Shown: one piece after another, positions 6,955 to 45,013 of the stretch
Layout of the letters: each line of letters starts with the position of its first letter
How positions within the stretch are numbered: position 1 is the first letter of the stretch
Origin: Ruania halotolerans
GTDB lineage: Bacteria > Actinomycetota > Actinomycetes > Actinomycetales > Beutenbergiaceae
Length of the DNA stretch: 64,000 bases
Direction: 5' to 3'
Assembly (NCBI RefSeq): GCF_021049285.1
Contig: NZ_CP088017.1
Location: 124,001-188,000, forward strand
Notes under the pieces: generated by a model
Databases searched by the model: none
What the model was told of the DNA's origin: nothing
The model's input: only the letters and a program-made list of their open reading frames with translations
Translations under genes and position numbers: made by a program

Positions 6955-7787
6955 CGGCGGAGCCCCCACAGGTGGGCACCTCACCCACGAGCGCGGCGGC
7001 CGCCTCGGCCGCCGCGCCCTGGCCCATCTCGCTACAGAACGTCACGGTCACCTACCCCAACGGCACCCGAGCTTTGACGGATGTGTCGGTGCAGATCGAG
7101 CCGGGCGAGATCGTCTCCGTCGTCGGCCTCTCCGGATCGGGCAAGTCCACCCTGATCCGCACCATCAACGGGCTTGTCCCGGTGACCTCGGGCAGTGTGA
7201 GCGTCGGTGGGCACGATGTCGCCCGGGCGCGCGGACGAGCTCTGCGGGAACTGCGCGGGCACATCGGAATGATCTTCCAGGGCTTCAACCTCGCCGACCG
7301 GATCAGCGTGCTCGACAACGTGCTCGTCGGACGGTTCGCCCACACACCCAGCTACCGCACGCTGCTCAGGCTCACCAGCAAGGCCGACAAGCAGCTAGCC
7401 CTGCACGCACTGGACTCCGTCGGCATGATCGAGAAGGTCTGGACCCGGGCAGGCTCACTCTCCGGCGGTCAGAAGCAGCGGGTCGCCATCGCGCGAGCGC
7501 TCACGCAGCAACCCTCGGTGATGCTCGCGGACGAGCCGGTGGCCAGCCTCGATCCGCCGACGGCGCACGCCGTCATGAGCGATCTGGCCCGAACCAGCAC
7601 CGAACGCGGCCTGACCGTGATCATCAACATCCACCTGATGGATCTGGCCCGGCAATACACCAATCGGATGATCGGCCTGCGCGGCGGCGAGCTGGTCTAC
7701 GACGGTCCGGCGGCGGATGCCACTGATGCCGACTTCGAGGAGATCTACGGCCGACCCATCCGGAGCCGGGACCGGCTCGGGACCTGA
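6951..7787 (+). CDS. phnC: PhnC-type ABC transporter ATPase
   Basis: 278-residue ATPase that powers the PhnDCE importer. The Walker A motif GLSGSGKST, the Q loop, the signature [15 protein letters not shown] and Walker [14 protein letters not shown] are all intact, followed by a typical H-loop region ([10 protein letters not shown]). The frame is open upstream, but a GTG at 6951 overlaps the phnD stop (GTGA), giving a normal-length protein with an Ala-rich N-terminal extension of about 25 residues. Confidence 0.92.
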
Positions 7788-7791
7788 ACCG

Positions 7792-8622
7792 ATGAGCGAT
7801 ACGACCACTCTCGCGAACCCGGGCGGCCCGGCGCTGCACCTGCCCGCGCGACCACGCCGGCCGTGGCGCACGGCGGGGATCGTGGCCGTGCTGTGCATCT
7901 TCACGGCGCTCACCTGCCTCCCGGCGATCGGCGGCGTGGAGATCGACCTGGCCGCCATCACGCGCAACTGGTCCAACGGTGCGGACAAGATGGGCCAACT
8001 GCTCCGGCCGGACTTCGCCTTCCTGCCCCGCACCATCGGCCCGATGCTGGAGACGCTGGCCATGGCCGTGGCCGGAGCAGCATTCGCCGCCGTCATCTCC
8101 ATCCCGCTCACGCTCGCGGCCGCACGACCCAGCAACCCCAACCCCCTCACCCGCCAGCTGGTCCGGTTCCTGGTCAACGTGGACCGCGCCGTGCCGGACC
8201 TCGTCTTCGCCACCGTGCTGGTCGCGATGGTCGGCGTCGGCACCCTTCCCGGTTTCCTGACGCTCCTGCTCTTCGACATCGGCGTGGTGGTCAAGCTGGT
8301 CTCCGAGGCCGTCGAGGCGGCCGACCACCCCTACCTCGAGGCCGGCAAGGCAGCAGGAGGGACGCAGACCCAGCTCAACCAGGCCACCGTGCTGCCGCAA
8401 TCATGGTCGCTGCTGGCCAATCAATGGCTGTACTCGCTCGAGCTGAACGTCCGGATCTCGGCAATCCTGGGCATCGTCGGCGCGGGCGGTATCGGGCGAC
8501 TGCTGGATGAACGCCGCGGCTTCTACGCCTACGACGACGTCTCGGTGATCATCCTGGAGATCCTGGTTGTGGTGATCATCATCGAGATGTGCTCGACTGC
8601 GCTCCGGAAGCGGCTCCGATGA
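7792..8622 (+). CDS. phnE: PhnE-type ABC transporter permease 1
   Basis: 276-residue inner-membrane permease of the phosphonate/phosphite importer. The ATG at 7792 starts 4 bases after the phnC stop. Several transmembrane segments are visible, and the EAA-loop region reads EAVEAADHPYLEAGKAAGGT. The C-terminal core motif ILGIVGAGGIGRLLDE is characteristic of PhnE proteins. It forms a heterodimer candidate with the following permease, to which it is coupled by ATGA overlap. Confidence 0.9.
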   Translation: MSDTTTLANPGGPALHLPARPRRPWRTAGIVAVLCIFTALTCLPAIGGVEIDLAAITRNWSNGADKMGQLLRPDFAFLPRTIGPMLETLAMAVAGAAFAAVISIPLTLAAARPSNPNPLTRQLVRFLVNVDRAVPDLVFATVLVAMVGVGTLPGFLTLLLFDIGVVVKLVSEAVEAADHPYLEAGKAAGGTQTQLNQATVLPQSWSLLANQWLYSLELNVRISAILGIVGAGGIGRLLDERRGFYAYDDVSVIILEILVVVIIIEMCSTALRKRLR

Positions 8623-9485
8623 GCGGGGTGGCGCAGCGCTCCGCCCAGCAGGCGCCGATGAGCGAGCCGGTGGAACTCCGGGTACCCCCACGGCCCGCAC
8701 GCGCAGTGGCGACGCTGACGGCGGTGGTGGTGGGCGCCGTCGTGCTGGCCTCCACGGCGGGCCTGAACATCGCGTGGACCGAACTCGGCGACGTGCCGGG
8801 GCGGGTGGCCGAGTACCTGCGGCTGATGTTCGCCGAGCCGAACTGGGAGAAGCTGCCGCGCGCACTGTTCGAGACCTGGCGCTCCATCTCGATGGCGTGG
8901 CTCGGCGCCATCGGCTGCGTGGTGATCTCCATCCCGCTCGGGATGCTCGCGGCCCAGGGAGTGGGGCCCGCGTGGCTGCGCCTGGTGCTGCGGGGAATCT
9001 TCGCCGTGATCCGCGCCGTGCCCGAGGTGATCATCGCTCTCGTGCTGCTCACGGTCACCGGGCTCACCCCGTTCACCGGGGCACTCGCACTGGGCATCGC
9101 CGGAATCGGGACGCAGTCCAAGTGGGTCTACGAGACGATCGAGTCCGCACCGACCGGTGCCACCGAGGCCGTCCGCGCCGCCGGGGGTTCCACGGCGGAG
9201 GTCGCGAGGTGGGCGCTCTGGCCGGCGGTGGCCCCGGCGCTGACGTCCTTCGCGCTGTACCGTGTCGAGATCAACATCCGCACCTCCGCCGTGCTCGGTC
9301 TGGTCGGTGCGGGTGGCATCGGTTCGATGCTGTCCAACTACACCAACTTCCGCGAATGGGACACGGTCGGGATGTTGCTCATCGTGGTGGTGGTGATCAC
9401 CATGATGTTCGACCTGATCTCCGGCTCGATCCGCCGGCGCATCATGGAGGGAGCACGTGTCCGTGACGTGGACAGGACCCGCTGA
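8619..9485 (+). CDS. phnE: PhnE-type ABC transporter permease 2
   Basis: 288-residue second permease, paralogous to the upstream one. It shares the same C-terminal core (VLGLVGAGGIGSMLSNY), an EAA-type loop (ESAPTGATEAVRAAGGS) and multiple hydrophobic spans. It starts at ATG 8619 inside the stop of the first permease. Two tandem PhnE copies are common in actinobacterial PhnCDE systems. Its last 29 bases overlap the regulator gene that follows. Confidence 0.9.
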   Translation: MSGVAQRSAQQAPMSEPVELRVPPRPARAVATLTAVVVGAVVLASTAGLNIAWTELGDVPGRVAEYLRLMFAEPNWEKLPRALFETWRSISMAWLGAIGCVVISIPLGMLAAQGVGPAWLRLVLRGIFAVIRAVPEVIIALVLLTVTGLTPFTGALALGIAGIGTQSKWVYETIESAPTGATEAVRAAGGSTAEVARWALWPAVAPALTSFALYRVEINIRTSAVLGLVGAGGIGSMLSNYTNFREWDTVGMLLIVVVVITMMFDLISGSIRRRIMEGARVRDVDRTR

Positions 9486-10320
9486 GGCTCCGGTGTCTGC
9501 GCGGATCGCTGCGCTAGCACCCTCGCTGCAGCCGAGCGAACGGCGCGTCGTCGATGCCATCGCCGCCGACCTCGCCGCCGCCGTGGAGTGCACCGCACAG
9601 GAGATCGCGGACCGAGTCGGGGTGGGCCGGGCCTCGGTCATCCGCACCGCGCAGAGCCTCGGCTACGACGGCTACCCCCAGCTCCGGGTGGCCCTGGCGC
9701 GCGAAGTGGCCCTGGCCCCGGCCACCGAGCCGGCTGACGATTCGCCGATGGGGAGCCTACGTGCCGCTGTCGACCAGTTTGCCCGCACGCTGCCCCAGCT
9801 GACGGCGGCCCTGACCCCCGCAGACGTGGAACGCTTCGTCGAGGCCGTCGACCTTGCCCCCCGGGTGGTGCTCGTGGCCGCCGGGCTCTCCGCACCGCTG
9901 GGGCTGAGCATGGCGATGCGGCTCAGCGCCGCCGGCCGCCCGGCCGAGTACCTGCCGGACACGCTCTCCCAGCTGATCGCCGCCCGGAGCCTGGAACCGG
10001 GCTCGGTCTGTCTGGTGATCTCCGGGTCCGGAGCGAACCAGCCGAGCCTCGATGCCGCCGCGGCTGCGCACGAGGCCGGGGCGCAGGTGCTGGTGCTGAC
10101 CTCCTTCACGCGGGCGCCGATCGTCGAGCACGCCGATACGGTGCTGGTGATTCCCGCCGTCAGCGAGTCCTTCTCCGATGAGCTCGTGCACACCTCGCGG
10201 GCGGCGCTTTCGCTGGTGATCGAGGCACTGGTGGACCTGCTGGTCGCCCGGCGTGGCGCTCGCGGCCGGCAGGCACGTGCGGAGGCGATGGCGCTGGTGA
10301 GCAAGCGGCTCAGCGAATAG
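9457..10320 (+). CDS. RpiR/MurR-type transcriptional regulator with SIS domain
   Basis: 287-residue regulator with an N-terminal winged helix-turn-helix (about 15-90; QEIADRVGVGRASVIRTAQSLGY) and a C-terminal SIS phosphosugar-binding domain (about 115-260; VVLVAAGLSAPLGLSMAMRL, SGSGANQPSLDAAAAAHEAGAQVLVLT). The GTG at 9457 has GGAGG 6 bases upstream and lies inside the 3' end of the second permease gene. Position in the operon suggests it controls the importer. SIS regulators normally sense phosphorylated sugars, which hints that the imported compound could be a sugar phosphonate or phosphosugar-like molecule; this is inference. Confidence 0.88.
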   Translation: MSVTWTGPAEAPVSARIAALAPSLQPSERRVVDAIAADLAAAVECTAQEIADRVGVGRASVIRTAQSLGYDGYPQLRVALAREVALAPATEPADDSPMGSLRAAVDQFARTLPQLTAALTPADVERFVEAVDLAPRVVLVAAGLSAPLGLSMAMRLSAAGRPAEYLPDTLSQLIAARSLEPGSVCLVISGSGANQPSLDAAAAAHEAGAQVLVLTSFTRAPIVEHADTVLVIPAVSESFSDELVHTSRAALSLVIEALVDLLVARRGARGRQARAEAMALVSKRLSE

Positions 10321-37119: not shown

Positions 37120-37677
37120 GTGGCGCGACGTGAAGAGGTCGATCGCAAGATCCATCAGGCCGCGATGGAGCTCCTGCGTGCGCATGGTCCTGCGTCGGTC
37201 ACCGTGGAAGCCGTGGCCGCGGCGTCGGGCGTTGCCCGCACCACCATCTATCGCCGGCACAAGGACTCAGGCGCCGTGCTCGAGTCGGCCCTGAAGGAGA
37301 TCGCCGCCTCGAACGTGCTGATCCCCACCGATGACGTGTGGACGGATATGCGTCAGGCAATCCGGCTGCTCATCGCCACGTTCCAGGAAAACCAGGGGGT
37401 GGGGGTCTTCCTCGGCCTCATCACGGGCGGTGACCCTGAGCTAGTGGAGTTGATCCGGGAGAAGCTGCTCCGGCCGCGGATGGAATTGGGTATCGCCCGG
37501 ATGCGCGCAGGTGTCGCGGCCGGGCAGATCCGCGCCGATGCCGATGTGGAGACCGCTGCCGACCTGGTGCTCGGGGCGGTAGCGGCCCGATTCGCGCACG
37601 CCGGGACCTTCCCGGAGGAGTGGATCGACTCTGTGGTGACACTGATGAGGCAAGCGCTCGAAGCCCGCGCGCAGTGA
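37120..37677 (+). CDS. TetR-family transcriptional regulator
   Basis: 185-residue repressor with an N-terminal TetR helix-turn-helix (VTVEAVAAASGVARTTIYRRHKDSGAVLESAL) and a C-terminal ligand-binding domain of the TetR_C_11-like type. GTG 37120 has GGAGG directly upstream. It sits 188 bases before the lipid operon, and a perfect palindrome between them is its likely operator. The C-terminal domain would bind a lipid or acyl-CoA signal if it acts on that operon; this is inference. Confidence 0.9.
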   Translation: MARREEVDRKIHQAAMELLRAHGPASVTVEAVAAASGVARTTIYRRHKDSGAVLESALKEIAASNVLIPTDDVWTDMRQAIRLLIATFQENQGVGVFLGLITGGDPELVELIREKLLRPRMELGIARMRAGVAAGQIRADADVETAADLVLGAVAARFAHAGTFPEEWIDSVVTLMRQALEARAQ

Positions 37678-37774
37678 CCCACGCCCGCCCGGTGCCGGTA
37701 ACGACCCATCCGTTCGGCCGCCGGTGACGAACCCACCACTGGCAGGGCACCCGATCCTCGGCGTACGCTAGCCA

Positions 37775-37799
37775 TATCGCTACACACTGTGTAGCGATA
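37775..37799. promoter_or_regulatory. Perfect 25-bp palindrome, likely TetR operator
   Basis: Arms TATCGCTACACA (37775-37786) and TGTGTAGCGATA (37788-37799) flank a single central base. It lies 66 bases before the first lipid-operon gene, next to a TACGCT sequence at 37764-37769 that could be a -10 box. Shape and size fit a TetR dimer-pair operator. Confidence 0.8.
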
Positions 37800-37864
37800 G
37801 CACGGTCGTCCGGCTCGGGCCGGCGGCGGTGCACCGGCCCGCACTCGTACCGGAACCAGGAACT

Positions 37865-38662
37865 ATGGCCTTCAATATTGATCGCTTCGCCCGCGACTCT
37901 GTGGCGGTGAACTGGGAGGACCTCGATCTCGAGTCCTTCGCCCACGATCCCCTGCCGGCCGAGTCGCTGCGCACCTTGCGTTATATGTGTGACGTCGAGT
38001 ACCACACGGTCTGCTACCTGAGGGACATGCTCGTCACCCCATCGCGCGGGGAGGGCGAGGTGAACGCCTTCATGGCCATGTGGAACCGGGAGGAGTTCTG
38101 GCACGGTGAGGCGCTCGCTCACGTGCTTGAACTCCATGGCATCACGGTCAGCTACGACGAGCTCAAGGCGAAGCGGGTCAAGCTCGGCTGGCGGGATCGG
38201 ATCGCCCCGGTCAAGCAGGCCTTGCTCTCCAATGTGGTGGGTAAGGACTTCGTGGCCGTGCACATGATCTGGGGTGCAGTGAACGAATGGACCGCATCGG
38301 CCGCCTACAAGCGGCTCGCCGCCCTGGAAGGTCATCCGGCGCTCGCGGTGCTGCTGAAGCGGATCGCCGCCCAGGAGGCCAAGCACGTGGCCTTCTATGC
38401 GACCCAGGCACGCACCCGGCTGGAGGGCAACGCGAAGGCGCAGAAGCTCGCGCGGCTGGCCCTGTCCACGGCGTGGCGCCCAGTCGGCGCCGGCATCGCC
38501 ACTGATGACGAGGTCACCTACGTGATGGGGCAATTGTTCGGTGGTGCTGACGGGCGCAAGGAGATTCAGGCGATCGACCGCCACATCGCCAAGCTGCCGG
38601 GGATGGAGGGCCTGACGATCGTGGCGGACGCTCTGGACTCCCGAGGGATCGCGGCAGCGTGA
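37865..38662 (+). CDS. Ferritin-like di-iron protein, acyl-ACP-desaturase-like
   Basis: 265-residue helical protein with the six ligands of a carboxylate-bridged di-iron centre: Glu45 (DVEYHTV), Glu77 and His80 (EEFWHG), Glu141 (VNEWTA), and Glu171 and His174 (QEAKHVAFY). The two E-x-x-H motifs and spacing resemble soluble acyl-ACP desaturases, although the protein is shorter. It has no transmembrane segment. The ATG at 37865 follows AGGAA. First gene of an operon containing fatty acyl reductase, SDR, acyltransferase and alkyl-DHAP-synthase-like genes, so it likely oxidises or desaturates a lipid chain or alkyl ether. The exact reaction is not shown by sequence. Confidence 0.8.
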   Translation: MAFNIDRFARDSVAVNWEDLDLESFAHDPLPAESLRTLRYMCDVEYHTVCYLRDMLVTPSRGEGEVNAFMAMWNREEFWHGEALAHVLELHGITVSYDELKAKRVKLGWRDRIAPVKQALLSNVVGKDFVAVHMIWGAVNEWTASAAYKRLAALEGHPALAVLLKRIAAQEAKHVAFYATQARTRLEGNAKAQKLARLALSTAWRPVGAGIATDDEVTYVMGQLFGGADGRKEIQAIDRHIAKLPGMEGLTIVADALDSRGIAAA

Positions 38663-39453
38663 GCAGCATGAGCACGCGGGCTTTCGATGTCCGCGACTAC
38701 GCTCGGACCCCTGGCGAACTGCGCCCCACGGACCTTGACCTGGGTGCCGTGGCGGATCTACCGGCACAGGTTCGTCGCACCCTGGCGCACCTGTGGTCGA
38801 CTGAGCGCACGCTATTGGACCTGATGCGCGATCTGCTGGTCACTCCCACCCACGCCGAGGCACGGGTGACGGCGTTCCTGACGACCTGGGCGTACGAGCA
38901 GTACTGGATCGCCCAGTCGATCGGCGCCGTCCTGGACGTCAACGACGGCGCCGGGGAAGGTCCGCCGGACACCCCGCTCGGGCGGGTGCGCCGCGGATGG
39001 GACGAAAGGGCCCGGCCCACCGTGGATGCGATCCGCACCAACCTGCTCGGCAGCGAGGTGGTGGCCGCCCACATGAGCACCGGATGGCTGAACACCGCTG
39101 TGATGGACCTCGCCTACCGGCGAATCGGTCACATGGAACCTCGGCTGCGGAACGTGACGGACGCCGTCGCCGGAATCAAAGCCCGGCACCTGGAGTTCTA
39201 CGCGGACGAGGCACAGGTGCGCCTCGCCGCCTCCGCCGGGGCGCGCCGTCGTGCCGCTCGTACCGTGCGTCGGTGGACGTGGCCAGGCGTGCGCTATGGC
39301 GGACTGGCAGCCGCGCGGCCGGTCGTGGTCCACCTGTTCGCCGACCCGTCCGCACGCCCTGGCGTGCGGGCCGTCGATGCGGGCGTCGCCGCCCTGCCCG
39401 GGCTCGGCCAGAGTGCTCCGCTACGCACGGCGCTGGGGCAATTCCTGCGCTGA
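38659..39453 (+). CDS. Degenerate paralogue of the di-iron protein
   Basis: 264-residue protein homologous along its length to the preceding gene product (shared RDMLVTP/RDLLVTP, AYKRL/AYRRI and FYA blocks). Aligning the two, Glu45 corresponds to Glu49 and His174 to His177. Glu77, His80, Glu141 and Glu171 are replaced by Gln81, Ile84, Thr146 and Lys174. It therefore cannot hold a normal di-iron centre and is probably a structural or regulatory partner of the active subunit. GTG 38659 overlaps the previous stop (GTGA), which implies coupled 1:1 synthesis. Not a pseudogene: the reading frame is intact. Confidence 0.78.
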   Translation: MSSMSTRAFDVRDYARTPGELRPTDLDLGAVADLPAQVRRTLAHLWSTERTLLDLMRDLLVTPTHAEARVTAFLTTWAYEQYWIAQSIGAVLDVNDGAGEGPPDTPLGRVRRGWDERARPTVDAIRTNLLGSEVVAAHMSTGWLNTAVMDLAYRRIGHMEPRLRNVTDAVAGIKARHLEFYADEAQVRLAASAGARRRAARTVRRWTWPGVRYGGLAAARPVVVHLFADPSARPGVRAVDAGVAALPGLGQSAPLRTALGQFLR

Positions 39454-39491
39454 GGCCACGGCACTGTCCCGGGCCGCGTACAGTAACCGGG

Positions 39492-41759
39492 GTGTCGGAC
39501 CCACTGAAGAACGCCCATGTCCTGGTGACGGGCGCCACCGGATTCGTTGGCCAGGCCGTGGTGGAGAAACTGCTCTCGGCCTACCCGACGACGCGGATCG
39601 CACTCCTGGTGCGTCCGCGCGGTGCGCTCACCGCGCAGGACCGGGTGACGAAGATGCTGAAGAAGCCCGTGTTCGGAACCTGGCGTGAGCGCGTGGGTGC
39701 CGAGACTGCCGATGCCGAGGTCGCCCGCAGAATCACGGTCATCGCCGGGGACCTGGGCGATGTGCCCGCGTTGCCGACGGACCTGACGCATGTGGTGCAC
39801 TCCGCCTCCACCGTCTCCTTCGATCTGCCGATCGACGAGGCGTTCGCCGCCAACGTCGGCGGTCCGGTGAGCCTGTACGAGGCGCTCGAGGCCAGTGGTG
39901 CGGATCCGCATGTGGTGCACGTCTCCACCTGTTACGTGGCGGGGCTGCGCAAGGGCATGACCGAAGAGCGCAGCCTGGAACACTCGGTGGACCGCGTGGT
40001 CGAGACGACCCGGGCGTTGCGCGCCCGTGATTCCGTCGAGGCGGCCTCCCGGCGCCCCCAGGTGCTGGACAAGATCGTGGCCAAGGCGCGCGCCGCGCAT
40101 CGCCGCGCCGGTGCACAGGCGGTGGCCCAGGCTGCTGAACAAGCCCGGAAGGCATGGGTGAATGACCAACTCGTGGCCGCCGGACGTACCCGCGCGACCT
40201 CGCTCGGCTGGCCGGACGTCTACACCTTCACCAAGGCGCTCGGTGAGCGGGTGGCCGAAGACCTGTGGGCCGGCGGTGGGCACCGCCTCTCGATTGTGCG
40301 ACCCACCATCATCGAGAGCTCGCTGGAACACCCCTTCCCGGGGTGGATCGACGGCTTCAAGGTGGCCGACCCGCTGATCGCCGCGTACGGGCGGGGCATG
40401 CTGCCGGAGTTCCCGGGGCTCGCGGACACCATCCTCGATGTCATTCCCGTGGACCATGTGGTGAACGCGATCCTCGCCGCAGCGGCGAGTCCGCCCCCGC
40501 AGCGGGAAGCGCAGTACTTCCAAGTGGCGTCGGGGCGGCGGAATCCGTTGCGCTTCACCACCATCCTGGGACTGCTGCGCGGCTATTTCCAGAAGCACCC
40601 CCTCACCGACGACGACGGTTCGTTCGTGCAAGTACCGAACTGGACCTTCCCGAACGGCCCTGCGGTGCAGCGCTCCCTGCGCCGGCGCCAGATGGCTGTG
40701 GATCTCGCCGACACGGTGGTGGGCAAACTCCCGGCGAATGACACCACCCGGGAGTGGATCTCGGGGGTCTACAAGGCCAAACGTGATCTGGGCACGTTGC
40801 GCAAGTTCACCGATCTCTACCAGGCGTACACGCAGACCGAGGTGGTCTTCGATGACGCCAACACCCGCGCCCTGCACGAGGCGCTGCCCGAGGACCGCCG
40901 GGCCGAGCACGGGTTCGACGTCACCGCCATCGACTGGACGTACTACCTGCAAGAGGTGCACGTTCCCAAGGTGCCCGGCCTGATGCGCACGCGCGGACCG
41001 AAGGCCCCGCCGAACACCCGCGTGAAGAGCCTGCCGCAACGCGAAGATGTGCTCGCGGTCTTCGACCTGCACGGCACGGTGGCTGCCGCCAGCCTGATCG
41101 AGCACTACGTGTGGGTCGAACTCGCTGCCAAGGGCGTCGTTCCCGCACTGAAAGGGCTCGGCGGGATGGTGGCCTCCTCGGGCACCTATCTGCAGGCCGA
41201 GTGGCGTGACCGCGGAGACTTCATCCGCAGTTTCATGCGGCGTTACGCCGGAGTGGACGAGGCCGAGCTGCGTGAGGTCATCGCCACCAAGGTCACGCCC
41301 TCCCTGCGTGCCCGGCTGCTCGTCGATGCCACCGAACGGATCGCGCAGCATCGTGCCGCCGGGCACCGGACGGTGCTGGTGAGCGGTCAGATCGACGTTT
41401 TCGTGGAACCGCTGGCGGACATGTTCGATGTGATCGTCGCCGGTGAGATGGAGAAGGACGCCACCGGCGGCTGGACCGGTCACCTGGCCACCTCCCCGCT
41501 CGTGGACGAGGCCCGTGCGTCCTGGCTACGCAGGTACGCCCGCGACGAGGGGATGGATCTGGCCGGCTCCTATGCCTACGGAGACACCTACGCCGATCGC
41601 CCGTGGCTGGAGGTGGTGGGCAAGGCGAACGTCGTGAACCCGGATGCCAGCCTCTACCGGTTCGCCCGGGAGAAGCGGTGGCCGGTGCACTCCTGGACCA
41701 CGACGGCGGAGGGCAGGTTCTCGCCGATTCTGCGCTCGTTCATGGGGGTTCGCCGATGA
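39492..41759 (+). CDS. Fatty acyl reductase fused to HAD-IB domain
   Basis: 755-residue two-domain protein. Residues 1-480 form an extended-SDR fatty acyl-CoA reductase: NADPH motif GATGFVG (14-20) and catalytic Tyr244/Lys248 in DVYTFTKALGE. Residues 520-755 form a HAD-IB (PSPase-like) domain with VLVSGQ and GDTYADRPWLE motifs. HAD motif I reads DLHGT at 525-529, with His in place of the second catalytic Asp, so phosphatase activity is doubtful. The first half should turn acyl-CoA into fatty alcohol or aldehyde. GTG 39492 is chosen because the Rossmann motif then lies at the usual distance. Confidence 0.87.
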   Translation: MSDPLKNAHVLVTGATGFVGQAVVEKLLSAYPTTRIALLVRPRGALTAQDRVTKMLKKPVFGTWRERVGAETADAEVARRITVIAGDLGDVPALPTDLTHVVHSASTVSFDLPIDEAFAANVGGPVSLYEALEASGADPHVVHVSTCYVAGLRKGMTEERSLEHSVDRVVETTRALRARDSVEAASRRPQVLDKIVAKARAAHRRAGAQAVAQAAEQARKAWVNDQLVAAGRTRATSLGWPDVYTFTKALGERVAEDLWAGGGHRLSIVRPTIIESSLEHPFPGWIDGFKVADPLIAAYGRGMLPEFPGLADTILDVIPVDHVVNAILAAAASPPPQREAQYFQVASGRRNPLRFTTILGLLRGYFQKHPLTDDDGSFVQVPNWTFPNGPAVQRSLRRRQMAVDLADTVVGKLPANDTTREWISGVYKAKRDLGTLRKFTDLYQAYTQTEVVFDDANTRALHEALPEDRRAEHGFDVTAIDWTYYLQEVHVPKVPGLMRTRGPKAPPNTRVKSLPQREDVLAVFDLHGTVAAASLIEHYVWVELAAKGVVPALKGLGGMVASSGTYLQAEWRDRGDFIRSFMRRYAGVDEAELREVIATKVTPSLRARLLVDATERIAQHRAAGHRTVLVSGQIDVFVEPLADMFDVIVAGEMEKDATGGWTGHLATSPLVDEARASWLRRYARDEGMDLAGSYAYGDTYADRPWLEVVGKANVVNPDASLYRFAREKRWPVHSWTTTAEGRFSPILRSFMGVRR

Positions 41760-42568
41760 AGGGCAGCACCCACACGACACCGGTCCCGATCGCCGGGACC
41801 GCCCTCATCACCGGCGGCACCTCCGGGATCGGACTCGCCTTCGCTCGGGCGCTCGCCGCCCGCGGGTGTGACCTGGTGCTTGTGGCACGAACGCAGCACC
41901 GGCTCGATTCCACGGCCGAGGAGTTGCGCGGCGCGCACGGGATCGCCGTGCATACCATCGTGGCCGATCTGGCCCGGCGAGAGGACGTCGCGGTCCTCGC
42001 ACGCCGGCTCGAGGATGAGGCTGCGCCGGTGGACATCTTCGTCAACAACGCCGGAAGCGGGCTGCACGAGCCGCTGACCGCGAGAGACATCTCCGCGCAT
42101 GACCAGGCGATCGAGGTGATGCTCCGGGCAGTGCTCGTGCTCGGTGGCGCAGCCGGGCGAGCGATGGAAGCTCGCGGGACCGGCATCATCGTGAATGTGG
42201 CCTCCGTGGCGAGTCAGGTCGCCATGGGCAACTACTCCGCGATCAAGGCGTGGGTGGCCACCTGGTCGGAGAGCCTGAGCCTGGAGCTGGAAGGGACCGG
42301 CGTGCAGGTGCTGACCCTGATGCCAGGGTGGGTGCGCACCGAGTTCCACGAGCGCGCCAAGATCAAGACCTCCGCCATTCCCGCCTTCCTGTGGCTGGAT
42401 GCCGACCGGCTGGTGGCTGACTGCCTGGCCGATCTGGAGCGCGGCCGCACCTGGTCGGTACCATCCAAACGATTCAAGGTCGTCTCCTGGTGCGCTGATC
42501 ACTTCCCGAGGGCAGTGGTGCGACGCGCCACGGCCCGGATCCGGAAGGGGAGGAGCACCCATGAGTGA
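41756..42568 (+). CDS. Short-chain dehydrogenase/reductase
   Basis: 270-residue classical SDR. It has the cofactor motif TGGTSGIGLAFA, NNAG, and the catalytic Ser-Tyr-Lys set in VASVASQVAMGNYSAIKAWV. It overlaps the FAR-HAD gene by ATGA and the acyltransferase gene by eight bases. In an ether-lipid pathway this enzyme would be the candidate for reducing the keto group of 1-alkyl-dihydroxyacetone phosphate, or a fatty aldehyde; that assignment is from context. The C-terminal helix is basic. Confidence 0.88.
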   Translation: MKGSTHTTPVPIAGTALITGGTSGIGLAFARALAARGCDLVLVARTQHRLDSTAEELRGAHGIAVHTIVADLARREDVAVLARRLEDEAAPVDIFVNNAGSGLHEPLTARDISAHDQAIEVMLRAVLVLGGAAGRAMEARGTGIIVNVASVASQVAMGNYSAIKAWVATWSESLSLELEGTGVQVLTLMPGWVRTEFHERAKIKTSAIPAFLWLDADRLVADCLADLERGRTWSVPSKRFKVVSWCADHFPRAVVRRATARIRKGRSTHE

Positions 42569-43334
42569 GCGACGCGAGCGGCGGCGAACCAGTCGGTACC
42601 TCTCGCCCGTGCACCGCTGGGCGCGCTACCTCGCGCAGCGGCTGATCCTGCGGCCGATCATCTTCTCGAACGTGCGGGTCACGGTGGAGGGCGAACGGCA
42701 CGTGGCGGATCTGGACGGTCCGTTCATCGTGGTCGCCAACCACTCCAGCCACCTGGATGCCCCGCTGTGCATCACGGCATTGCCGTACTCGGTCACCAAG
42801 AACGTGGCCACCGCCGTGGCAGCGGACTACTTCTACCAGTCCACCTGGCGCAGTTCACTGACATCGCTGTTCTTCAACTCCTACCCGGTCGAGCGGGGTA
42901 AACCCCGGGGGAAGTCCTCAGGGCTGTCGGTGGCGCTGTTGCGGCAGGGGGTGCCGCTGCTGATCTTCCCCGAGGGCACACGCTCGCGGACCGGGGAGAT
43001 GGCCGATTTCACTCCGGGCGCCGCGGCGCTGGGGCGCGCGCTGCGGGTGCCGATCGTGCCGGTGGCGCTGGTGGGCGCGCATGATGCGATGCCGCCTGGC
43101 ACCTTCTGGCCCAAGTCCGGGCGGATGCCGGTGAAGGTTCTCATCGGCAAGCCGGTGCGGGTACGCCCGCGGGAGGCGCTCGCCGATCTGAACTCCCGCC
43201 TGACCGCGCGGGTGCGTGCCATGCATACGATGCAGACCTCGTATGTGCTGGTTCCCGAGGACGACCGTGCGGAGTCCGGACAGGCCGGGAGTACAGAGGA
43301 CGACATGCCGGATGCACAAGAAGGGATCTCATGA
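42561..43334 (+). CDS. PlsC-type glycerophosphate/DHAP acyltransferase
   Basis: 257-residue acyltransferase of the PlsC/AGPAT family. The catalytic motif NHSSHLD (H-x4-D) and the substrate-binding FPEGTRSRTGEM are intact, with VPIVPVALVG downstream. It adds an acyl chain to a glycerol phosphate or dihydroxyacetone phosphate backbone at the membrane. Translationally coupled on both sides. The C-terminal 25 residues are acidic and probably disordered. Confidence 0.9.
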   Translation: MSERRERRRTSRYLSPVHRWARYLAQRLILRPIIFSNVRVTVEGERHVADLDGPFIVVANHSSHLDAPLCITALPYSVTKNVATAVAADYFYQSTWRSSLTSLFFNSYPVERGKPRGKSSGLSVALLRQGVPLLIFPEGTRSRTGEMADFTPGAAALGRALRVPIVPVALVGAHDAMPPGTFWPKSGRMPVKVLIGKPVRVRPREALADLNSRLTARVRAMHTMQTSYVLVPEDDRAESGQAGSTEDDMPDAQEGIS

Positions 43335-45013
43335 CCAACGTCGTGCACCAGAAGTGGTGGGGGTGGGGCGTCGAAGGAGTGGCCTTCAGTCCTGACGGCA
43401 AGCCCGGCTTCGCTCCGTTCCTGCGCGAGGCCATCGGGCTGGACGTGTCCGGCCCGGCCGGAAGCCCGCCGACCTTCGACGAGCTGGATGTGCCCGCCTC
43501 CCGGTTGCCGGACGAGCTCGGCGCGACGTTGCGCCGGATCGTGGGCGATCACCAGGTCGCCACCGACGACATGGACCGGGTGGTGCACACCTACGGCAAG
43601 GGCCTGCGGGATCTGGTGCGGGTACGGGCCGGGGATCTGCCGCGGCTGCCGGATGTGGTGGTCTACCCGGCGAACGAAGACGAGGTTCAGCAGATCGTCG
43701 ATGCGGTGGTGGCGGCTGACGGGGTACTGATCCCGTTCGGCGGCGGTTCGAACATCTCCGGCTCGCTCACCCCGGAGGCGGGGGAGGAGCGCACGGTGGT
43801 CTCACTCGACCTGGGCCGGCTGAACCGGGTGCTGGAGATCGACGAAGACGCCGGGTTGGCACGGGTGCAGGCCGGCGGCCTGGGCCCCGATCTGGAGGCC
43901 CAGCTCACCGAAAGAGGCTGGACCATGGGTCATCAGCCGGACTCGTTCAAGCACTCCACCCTGGGCGGCTGGATCGCGACCCGCTCCTCCGGGATGCAAT
44001 CGGACAAGTACGGCGATATCGCGGACATCACGCGCGGTATGCGGGTGGTGCTGCCCGGCAAGGTCGTGGTGCTGCGGCCACTGCCGAGCACGTCCACCGG
44101 ACCGAGCCTGCGGGAGATGATCCTCGGCTCCGAGGGCCGCCTCGGCGTGATCACCGAGGCCTGGGTGCACGTGCACCGGGTGCCCGCCAACCGTGAAGTG
44201 ATCGCCTACCTGTACCCGAACTGGGCAGCAGGCATCGCCGCGATGCAGGAGATCTCCGTCTCGGACGCGACGCCGAGCATCACCCGCGTCTCGGACGCCG
44301 CCGAGACCGGGTTCTCGCTGGCCACGCGCAAGGAGTCCAAGGGGCTGTCCAGCAAGGTCGGCGAGGGGCTGTTCGAGTTGCTGCGCCGCCGCGGCTGGGA
44401 CCTGAACAAGGTGTGCATCTCCTATATCGGCTACGAGGGCGGCTCGGCGAAGGTGCGCGCCGACAAGTCCGAGGTGGGCAAGATCGTCGGCCGCCACGGT
44501 GGCATCAAGCTCGGCAAGGGTCCGGGGGCGATGTATGACCAGAAGAAGTTCGACACCCCGTATCTGCGCGACTTCCTGCTCGACCGGGGCGCCCTCGGGG
44601 ACGTCTCCGAGACGGCCGCCCCGTGGTCACGGCTGGGTGAGGTGTACGTCTCGACCGTGCGCGCCGCGCGCAAGGCGTTCACCGATCTGGACGTCCATGG
44701 CTTCATCATGTGCCACCTCTCGCACTCGTATCACTCCGGTGCGTGCCTGTACTTCACGTTTGCCTTCCCGCCGCGGGATGACTCCCCGCAGCTGGAGCAG
44801 TACGACGTGGTCAAGAGCGCGATCCAGCAGTCCTTCATCGACCACGGCGGCACGCTCTCCCACCACCACGGTGTGGGCACCGATCACGCCCCGTGGATGG
44901 AGCAGGACATCTCCGAGGCCGGTGTGGATCTCATGGTGGGACTGTTGCAATCGGCCGACCCGGGCCGCCACCTCAACCCCGGCACACTGCTCCCCCCGCA
45001 CCGGGAGTGGTGA
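43331..45013 (+). CDS. Alkyldihydroxyacetonephosphate synthase-like FAD enzyme
   Basis: 560-residue FAD-dependent protein of the alkyl-DHAP synthase (AGPS) group in the PCMH/VAO superfamily. It opens KWWGWGVEGVAFS, the hallmark N terminus. An FAD-binding region (VYPANEDEVQQIVDAVVAADGVLIPFGGGSNI) and the C-terminal HHHGVGTDHAPWM active-site block are present. AGPS swaps the acyl group of acyl-DHAP for a fatty alcohol, forming the ether bond. With the FAR, acyltransferase and SDR next to it, all steps of ether-lipid initiation are represented. Start overlaps the acyltransferase stop (ATGA). Other actinobacterial members act on unknown substrates. Confidence 0.87.
   Translation: MTNVVHQKWWGWGVEGVAFSPDGKPGFAPFLREAIGLDVSGPAGSPPTFDELDVPASRLPDELGATLRRIVGDHQVATDDMDRVVHTYGKGLRDLVRVRAGDLPRLPDVVVYPANEDEVQQIVDAVVAADGVLIPFGGGSNISGSLTPEAGEERTVVSLDLGRLNRVLEIDEDAGLARVQAGGLGPDLEAQLTERGWTMGHQPDSFKHSTLGGWIATRSSGMQSDKYGDIADITRGMRVVLPGKVVVLRPLPSTSTGPSLREMILGSEGRLGVITEAWVHVHRVPANREVIAYLYPNWAAGIAAMQEISVSDATPSITRVSDAAETGFSLATRKESKGLSSKVGEGLFELLRRRGWDLNKVCISYIGYEGGSAKVRADKSEVGKIVGRHGGIKLGKGPGAMYDQKKFDTPYLRDFLLDRGALGDVSETAAPWSRLGEVYVSTVRAARKAFTDLDVHGFIMCHLSHSYHSGACLYFTFAFPPRDDSPQLEQYDVVKSAIQQSFIDHGGTLSHHHGVGTDHAPWMEQDISEAGVDLMVGLLQSADPGRHLNPGTLLPPHREW

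Follow-up and report, generated by a model that had tools for sequence, protein, structure and literature searches.

A putative ferritin-like oxidase pair in a probable ether-lipid operon of Ruania halotolerans: a candidate oxygen-dependent route to plasmalogens

The subject of this report is a compact operon of Ruania halotolerans, found in a window of 64,000 nucleotides that corresponds to bases 124001-188000 of a single-contig 4.27-Mb Ruania-type genome. It encodes a TetR-family regulator, two ferritin-like paralogues (DI1 and DI2), a fatty acyl reductase fused to a HAD domain (FAR-HAD), a short-chain dehydrogenase/reductase (SDR), a PlsC-type acyltransferase and an alkyl-dihydroxyacetone phosphate (DHAP) synthase (AGPS). 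The last four genes form a core that very likely makes alkyl ether lipids, and the DI1-DI2 pair probably acts on these. Judged from sequence, the evidence leans modestly towards the operon being an oxygen-dependent plasmalogen route in which the vinyl ether would be made by the ferritin-like DI1-DI2 oxidase. A fuller version of this proposal has an even chance of being right: the operon would be a third, aerobic-actinobacterial plasmalogen route, its DI1-DI2 heteromer a 1'-desaturase unrelated to CarF that presumably acts on ethanolamine-free lipids, and the system, partly spread by horizontal transfer, would be the source of the Subtercola dimethyl acetals (DMAs) reported since 2000. What would be new is a proposed non-homologous enzyme for the key step of plasmalogen synthesis.

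The AGPS-type synthase (43331..45013, + strand) is strongly predicted and the firmest assignment in the operon. It matches 2uuu, which we take to be the AGPS of Dictyostelium, with a phmmer E value of 2.2e-113 and the peroxisomal AGPS enzyme 4bby with 2.6e-90. The homology to 2uuu is full-length, spanning residues 66-553 (488 residues), and includes the FAD_binding_4 and FAD-oxidase_C domains. An HHH motif, a tyrosine and two arginines align with the solved enzymes, and 68-70 of 71 orthologues retain them, with gaps in the others; these residues presumably correspond to the HHH motif, Tyr578, Arg419 and Arg515 of the mammalian active site.

The FAR-HAD fusion (39492..41759, + strand) joins a fatty acyl reductase (NAD_binding_4, E 3.1e-47; Sterile, E 7.9e-9) to an HAD-IB domain (HAD, E 1.7e-28). 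The reductase motifs GxxGxxG and YxxxK are found in 72 and 74 of 76 orthologues, with gaps in the others. In the HAD half, the nucleophile motif (window 41058-41087) reads DxH where DxD is canonical, and the orthologues have DxE (68 of the 74 aligned, two of the 76 being gapped) or DxH (6 of 74), never DxD. No pathway step is therefore assigned to this half; given the missing DxD, the fused domain may have an activity other than ordinary phosphate hydrolysis. The SDR (41756..42568, + strand; adh_short, E 6.2e-39), the proposed alkyl-DHAP reductase, retains YxxxK in 60 of 60 aligned orthologues, and PlsC (42561..43334, + strand; Acyltransferase, E 3e-22) retains HX4D and FPEG in 68-70 of 70. 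The initial annotation of this DNA had seen a complete ether-lipid route here. Its AGPS/FAR/SDR/PlsC core is supported, while completeness is partly presumed, as the HAD domain is non-canonical and has no defined step and the acylation by PlsC is ambiguous.

DI1 (37865..38662, + strand), the proposed catalytic subunit, is a putative ferritin-like di-metal oxidase. Its six predicted ligands, E45, E77, H80, E141, E171 and H174, are conserved without exception in all 81 alignment rows, and its closest named relatives are in Ruania rhizosphaerae (91%) and R. albidiflava (86%). The AlphaFold2 model (pLDDT 83.7, poor at residues 105-124) is a helix bundle whose core helices (32-56, 64-89, 127-155 and 158-186) show the four-helix pattern E, ExxH, E, ExxH. 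The best PDB matches of this model in Foldseek are DesA2 of M. tuberculosis, R2lox and plant acyl-acyl carrier protein (ACP) desaturases, at E values of ~3e-3, TM ~0.45-0.60 and 12-18% identity. The window DI1 falls into no Pfam or NCBIfam family at cut-off, its score against Pfam FA_desaturase_2 being sub-threshold (E 0.0046; 16.3 bits versus 22.7). This Pfam model is matched weakly by 20 of 20 DI1 members examined (best E 1.5e-5), and weak matches of these members extend to the rubrerythrin, COQ7 and AcsF models, with 13 Pfam families overall. At the level of profiles, these weak matches place DI1 in the ferritin-like oxidase superfamily. The earlier label of a desaturase-like protein is thus right as to superfamily and does not extend to membership of FA_desaturase_2. 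A viral origin was considered and rejected, a pattern search having found no DI1 relative among viral contigs. Distant homologues from other classes (14 loci, L105-L117 and L119; 34-46% identity) have no FAR-HAD, PlsC or AGPS in the adjoining DNA examined, which shows a single weak SDR (L110) and a single weak TetR (L113); these homologues were not used as pathway evidence.

DI2 (38659..39453, + strand), the proposed non-catalytic partner, is recognised as a paralogue of DI1 by profile-profile comparison (E 2.9e-54, 31% identity). None of its 80 alignment rows has an intact metal site: the equivalents of H80 and E171 are absent in 80/80 and that of E77 in 77/80, with Lys, Ile and Lys mostly standing in for E77, H80 and E171. 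The equivalents of E45 (79/80), E141 (58/80) and H174 (66/80) are largely kept. The DI2 model (pLDDT 87.3) finds R2lox and class Ie R2 proteins as its best folds. DI2 is present in 79 of 80 loci and the remaining one, L045, lies on a cut contig. That a protein should lose its metal site and yet be so widely kept argues for a DI1-DI2 hetero-oligomer. The degenerate paralogue recognised in the window is accordingly a case of conserved loss and no peculiarity of this strain.

A neighbourhood check, set beforehand, asked whether the pair travels with the AGPS/FAR genes, and it does so in 70 of 80 loci and 44 of 51 genomes. The loci are the best 80 of 167 DI1 relatives, a sample that leans to close kin. 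All four core genes accompany DI1 in 70 of them, three in three (all on cut contigs), only FAR-HAD in three and none in four. Five of the ten incomplete loci are on contigs cut close by (L015, L023, L045, L055, L071). In two more, L016 and L019, the AGPS orthologue (59 and 63%) lies at another place in the same genome; L068 shows no more than a 33% AGPS match, and L078 and L083 (Agromyces) have only partial matches of 29-36%. Gene order varies among the carriers. The order DI1-DI2-FARHAD-SDR-PlsC-AGPS occurs in six loci of Ruania and Occultella. In 55 loci, AGPS-PlsC-SDR is divergent from DI2-FARHAD-DI1, with FAR-HAD interleaved between the pair, and five more have this order with an extra PlsC. 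L041 and L056 bring the number of orders to four. Whole clusters also occur in three Streptomyces and two Phytoactinopolyspora loci.

The same association appears among 376 genomes drawn evenly from the order, with DI1 scored at E <= 1e-60 and the AGPS orthologue at >=52% identity. DI1 is found in 51 genomes, the AGPS orthologue in 70 and both in 44 (Fisher 1.3e-31, which ignores phylogeny). By genus, the orthologue occurs in 11 of 14 genera with DI1 and in 6 of 93 others (1.2e-8, a P value that ignores relatedness). In each of the genera g7 and g212 the sole DI1 genome is also the sole genome with an AGPS orthologue. Seven surveyed genomes of the same genus as the window genome also carry both genes, and genomes with only an AGPS paralogue (34-39%) have DI1 in 1 of 31. 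The two genes are no more than 7 kb apart in 16 of the 44 genomes and not close in 28, so that neighbourhood alone is insufficient to explain their co-occurrence. Among these 28, of which 21 are from family f80, 12 have the genes on the same contig far apart (over 20 kb) and 16 have them on separate contigs, so that they may still be closely linked.

The AGPS orthologue without DI1 was found in 26 genomes. Among ten such loci, the full four-gene core lies beside AGPS in five (L127-L131); PlsC alone accompanies it in L125 and L126, SDR in L122 and, on a short contig, in L124, and no core gene in L123. The occurrence of the core without the pair fits an add-on or tailoring role for the latter. 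Eleven of the 26 genomes belong to genus g219, including Kineococcus radiotolerans, whose small contig matches plasmid NC_009660 with 100% identity over 4 kb.

DMAs are plasmalogen markers, and they are reported in relatives that carry the cluster. Table 2 of PMC5945732 lists 17.0% i-16:0, 3.2% a-15:0 and 1.9% a-17:0 DMA, together about 22%, for Subtercola vilae DB165, a strain that, matched by name, carries the complete cluster (L025). The DMA totals of three other Subtercola species are ~21-29%. In this table the DMA chains match the cellular acids in length, and the sole unsaturated acid is a-15:1, a trace in one of the four species (PMC5945732). The cluster is also present in S. boreus (P27479, P27444, P27979; L028, L029, L048) and S. 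lobariae (L034). For both species the gene data come from other strain numbers than the lipid data, which for S. boreus are from DSM 13056, and S. frigoramans is not among the loci. Agreia, for which up to 4% i-15:0 DMA is reported, carries the cluster as well (L082, L085-L087). In Frigoribacterium adelgis an a-15:0 aldehyde/DMA is reported (PMC12823222). Frondihabitans is given as DMA-negative (PMC5945732). This may be unsafe, because a major C14:0 2-OH is reported there and the MIDI system named a-15:0 DMA as 14:0 2-OH in Kineococcus rubinsiae (PMC7472656).

Markers of the known routes were not detected in these organisms. PF10520 (CarF/PEDS1) was not detected in the window genome, which accords with the contrast that the initial annotation drew between the di-iron pair and CarF-type desaturases; the same search was positive for 12 of 296 genomes from across the phylum. 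It was likewise negative in 11 genomes from which named loci come (five Subtercola, two Agreia, two Ruania, one Occultella and one Streptomyces), with G026 positive in that search. The HGD-D domain PF06050, which we take to be part of PlsA and a marker of the anaerobic route, was detected neither in the window genome nor in 21 other genomes including these 11, the E. coli and M. jannaschii controls being positive. A membrane PEDS1 elsewhere in the window genome and an anaerobic PlsA were rejected on these grounds. With both markers at 0/11, the signatures of both published plasmalogen chemistries were not detected where DMA is abundant.

In the pathway proposed here, FAR would reduce branched acyl thioesters to fatty alcohols, as its family suggests. 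AGPS, on strong family grounds, would replace the acyl group of acyl-DHAP by the alcohol to form 1-O-alkyl-DHAP, which the SDR, by analogy with PexRAP, would convert to 1-O-alkyl-glycerol-3-phosphate. PlsC would acylate DHAP, the sn-2 position or both. With O2 and electrons from an outside donor, DI1 would then use its carboxylate/histidine di-metal site to dehydrogenate C1'-C2' of the alkyl ether and yield the 1-alk-1'-enyl (vinyl) ether, while DI2 may hold or present the lipid in a hetero-oligomer. TetR, through the palindrome described below, would control the operon.

Several points weigh against this pathway. No Foldseek match of the DI1 model reaches E <= 0.001, so that its likeness to acyl-ACP desaturases and R2lox is weak, and a soluble enzyme would need access to a membrane lipid. 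Across the 80 loci, the 30 largest neighbour clusters include no conserved redox partner or further operon gene; apart from a DAGK-type kinase, neighbours outside the operon and TetR occur in at most ten loci. DMAs may also arise from free aldehydes, and no lipid data on Ruania were found in the open-licence literature searched. The pair is also found apart from the core. DI1 occurs without an AGPS orthologue in 7 of 51 genomes (G225, G268, G533, G603, G594, G305, G336), one of which, G268, has an AGPS paralogue (36%), and in Agromyces-type genomes the pair persists without the core. G225, G268, G533, G603 (Agromyces allii) and G594 form, together with two Agromyces loci, one clade nested among AGPS-linked ones, beside Agreia; G434, which shares its genus with four of these exceptions, retains DI1 and AGPS within 6 kb. 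On sequence grounds, the clade would most simply reflect a single loss of the core with retention of the pair. The copies of DI1 in G305 and G336 are distant (50-51%) and have no DI2 in the adjoining DNA examined. At E 1e-60, DI1 is found in none of the 11 Kineococcus-genus genomes with an AGPS orthologue, and searching six of them to E 1e-3 gave two marginal matches. Yet K. rubinsiae has 2.9% a-15:0 DMA by gas chromatography-mass spectrometry (PMC7472656), which means that some other enzyme acts there or that this species differs. Finally, plsA/plsR are reported from several actinobacterial orders as well as from anaerobes and a number of facultative anaerobes (PMC9702350), which leaves the anaerobic route open to the group as a whole.

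Four other explanations have to be weighed. The core may make saturated 1-O-alkyl lipids while the pair oxidises an acyl or alkyl chain elsewhere, by mid-chain desaturation or hydroxylation, with no vinyl ether formed. The nearest folds of DI1, acyl-ACP desaturases and R2lox, point in this direction, as does the retention of the pair in Agromyces-type genomes without an AGPS orthologue. However, a product of mid-chain desaturation is hardly visible in Subtercola, where DMAs sum to ~21-29% and a-15:1 reaches trace level in just one of four species (PMC5945732, Table 2). For S. lobariae 10.3% 14:0 2-OH is given, but a-15:0 DMA is reported to have received this name from the MIDI system (PMC7472656). 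We regard this explanation as rather unlikely. Less likely again is that the Subtercola DMAs have another source, either a different enzyme or free or bound fatty aldehydes produced by FAR, and that the pair is unrelated to them. DMA in Kineococcus, where the pair was not detected, speaks for such a source; the failure to detect either known-route marker in five Subtercola genomes speaks against it, and the strong association of pair and core demands a product.

The pair could instead be an ether-cleaving or turnover oxygenase, akin to alkylglycerol monooxygenase (AGMO), that limits ether lipid and is co-regulated with its synthesis. Oxidation at C1' could equally yield a hemiacetal and cleavage, and co-occurrence alone cannot discriminate between these outcomes. 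The idea is nevertheless very improbable, as the pair belongs to the biosynthetic operon of the window, where DI1 comes first after the operator, and AGMO is a membrane protein of another family. Hydrocarbon synthesis by FAR and a ferritin-like oxygenase, in the manner of aldehyde-deformylating oxygenase, is barely plausible. Cyanobacteria do make alkanes with a reductase and a ferritin-like di-iron protein, and 6d9f, a structure with aldehyde deformylating activity in its title, ranks 36th among the Foldseek matches of DI1. However, the aldehyde decarbonylase family is absent from the 13 Pfam families matched by the 20 DI1 members, AGPS, SDR and PlsC would be left unexplained, and the DMA chains are full length. 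Formation of the vinyl ether by DI1-DI2 remains the explanation towards which we lean.

The layout of the locus is that described in the initial annotation: a TetR gene, a palindrome and six near-contiguous, mostly overlapping genes, all present where they had been placed. Four of the five gene junctions overlap, by 4, 4, 8 and 4 bp, and a single gap of 38 bp separates DI2 from FAR-HAD, which is consistent with one transcription unit. Ruania rhizosphaerae (L009) has the same seven genes in identical order (66-90% identity), showing that the arrangement is not due to chance. The TetR-family regulator (37120..37677, + strand) matches Pfam TetR_N (E 1.9e-8) and TetR_C_11 (E 1.7e-16), both over cut-off, and has orthologues (59-83% identity) at the equivalent position in L009-L015. 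Between it and DI1 lies a perfect 25-bp palindrome, TATCGCTACACA-C-TGTGTAGCGATA (37775..37799, no strand), with 12-bp perfect arms and a 1-nt centre, which is probably the TetR operator. A related CGCTACA..TGTAGCG inverted repeat precedes DI1 in four of seven other loci examined (L009, L012, L013, L014), and L010, L011 and L015 have no inverted repeat with arms >=8 bp upstream of DI1. Simple scans for a sigma-70-like promoter on the + strand and for a terminator-like site were both negative, a result of little weight in a high-GC actinobacterium. An RNA element was rejected, as nothing in the window matches Rfam at gathering scores. The operon is flanked by an HPr gene upstream and by an MFS transporter, a YdjC-like and a PHP-like protein downstream. 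None of these flanking genes is among the widely shared neighbours, an HPr-like cluster (named by eye) occurring in 6 of 80 loci.

Additional genes accompany the cluster in some relatives. Between FAR-HAD and DI1, L025 (Subtercola vilae) has a gene for a Lar_N protein (lactate racemase-like) and a second PlsC (7564-9833); an extra PlsC of this kind also occurs in L028, L029, L040 and L060. A cluster of DAGK_cat/YegS-type lipid kinases, two members of which were checked in Pfam, is found near 18 of 80 loci (e.g. L025 10879-11979, L036 2330-3325), in keeping with a lipid role. In the Agromyces-type loci L078, L083, L102, L103 and L136-L138, DI2-DI1 is kept and the ether core is not beside it; in L102 the two genes lie between peptidyl-tRNA hydrolase-like and Mfd-like genes (named by eye).

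If the proposal is correct, the Subtercola plasmalogen marker would at least gain a gene set and old DMA reports in aerobic relatives would become explicable. Oxygen-dependent vinyl ether formation would have arisen at least twice, from unrelated di-iron folds, with a possibly soluble enzyme replacing a membrane one, and plasmalogens could be better predicted from genomes. The DMAs of Subtercola, Frigoribacterium and Kineococcus are recorded in taxonomic papers, in the relevant parts of which no gene is named. A 2022 review singles out CarF-bearing myxobacteria as exceptional among aerobic bacteria with respect to plasmalogens (PMC9131029), and the oxygen-dependent route is elsewhere treated as eukaryotic (PMC9702350). 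Among the open-licence matches listed, none describes the operon and none links, by title or abstract, a ferritin-like protein to plasmalogen synthesis.

The aerobic pathway of animals and myxobacteria (FAR1, GNPAT, AGPS, PexRAP and PEDS1=CarF/TMEM189) resembles the operon in its FAR, acyltransferase, AGPS and reductase. As with core and pair here, the myxobacterial ether core (elbD) is more widespread than CarF, and the elb operon of M. xanthus also includes an HAD protein, ElbB (PMC9131029). The difference lies in the last step, for which that pathway uses CarF/PEDS1 whereas carriers of the operon have the ferritin-like pair and no detected CarF/PEDS1, and perhaps in the substrate, as the polar lipid description of S. 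vilae does not name phosphatidylethanolamine and leaves two phospholipids unassigned (PMC5945732). The anaerobic PlsA/PlsR system of Clostridium and some Actinobacteria (PMC9702350) would share the end product. It starts from diacyl lipids and works by reduction, and searches for its HGD-D domain were negative in the window genome and in all 21 others. Soluble acyl-ACP desaturases (DesA2, plant stearoyl-ACP desaturase) and R2lox share with DI1 the ferritin-like bundle and the pattern E, ExxH, E, ExxH. DI1 differs from them in its 12-18% identity, its sub-cut-off scores and in having a partner with a broken metal site. For DI2 the closest parallel is in class Ie R2 and yeast Rnr4-type subunits, in which metal ligands are replaced. 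DI2 likewise loses ligands, mostly by Glu to Lys changes, and class Ie R2 is among its best folds; unlike those subunits, which go with a nucleotide reductase, it adjoins a lipid operon.

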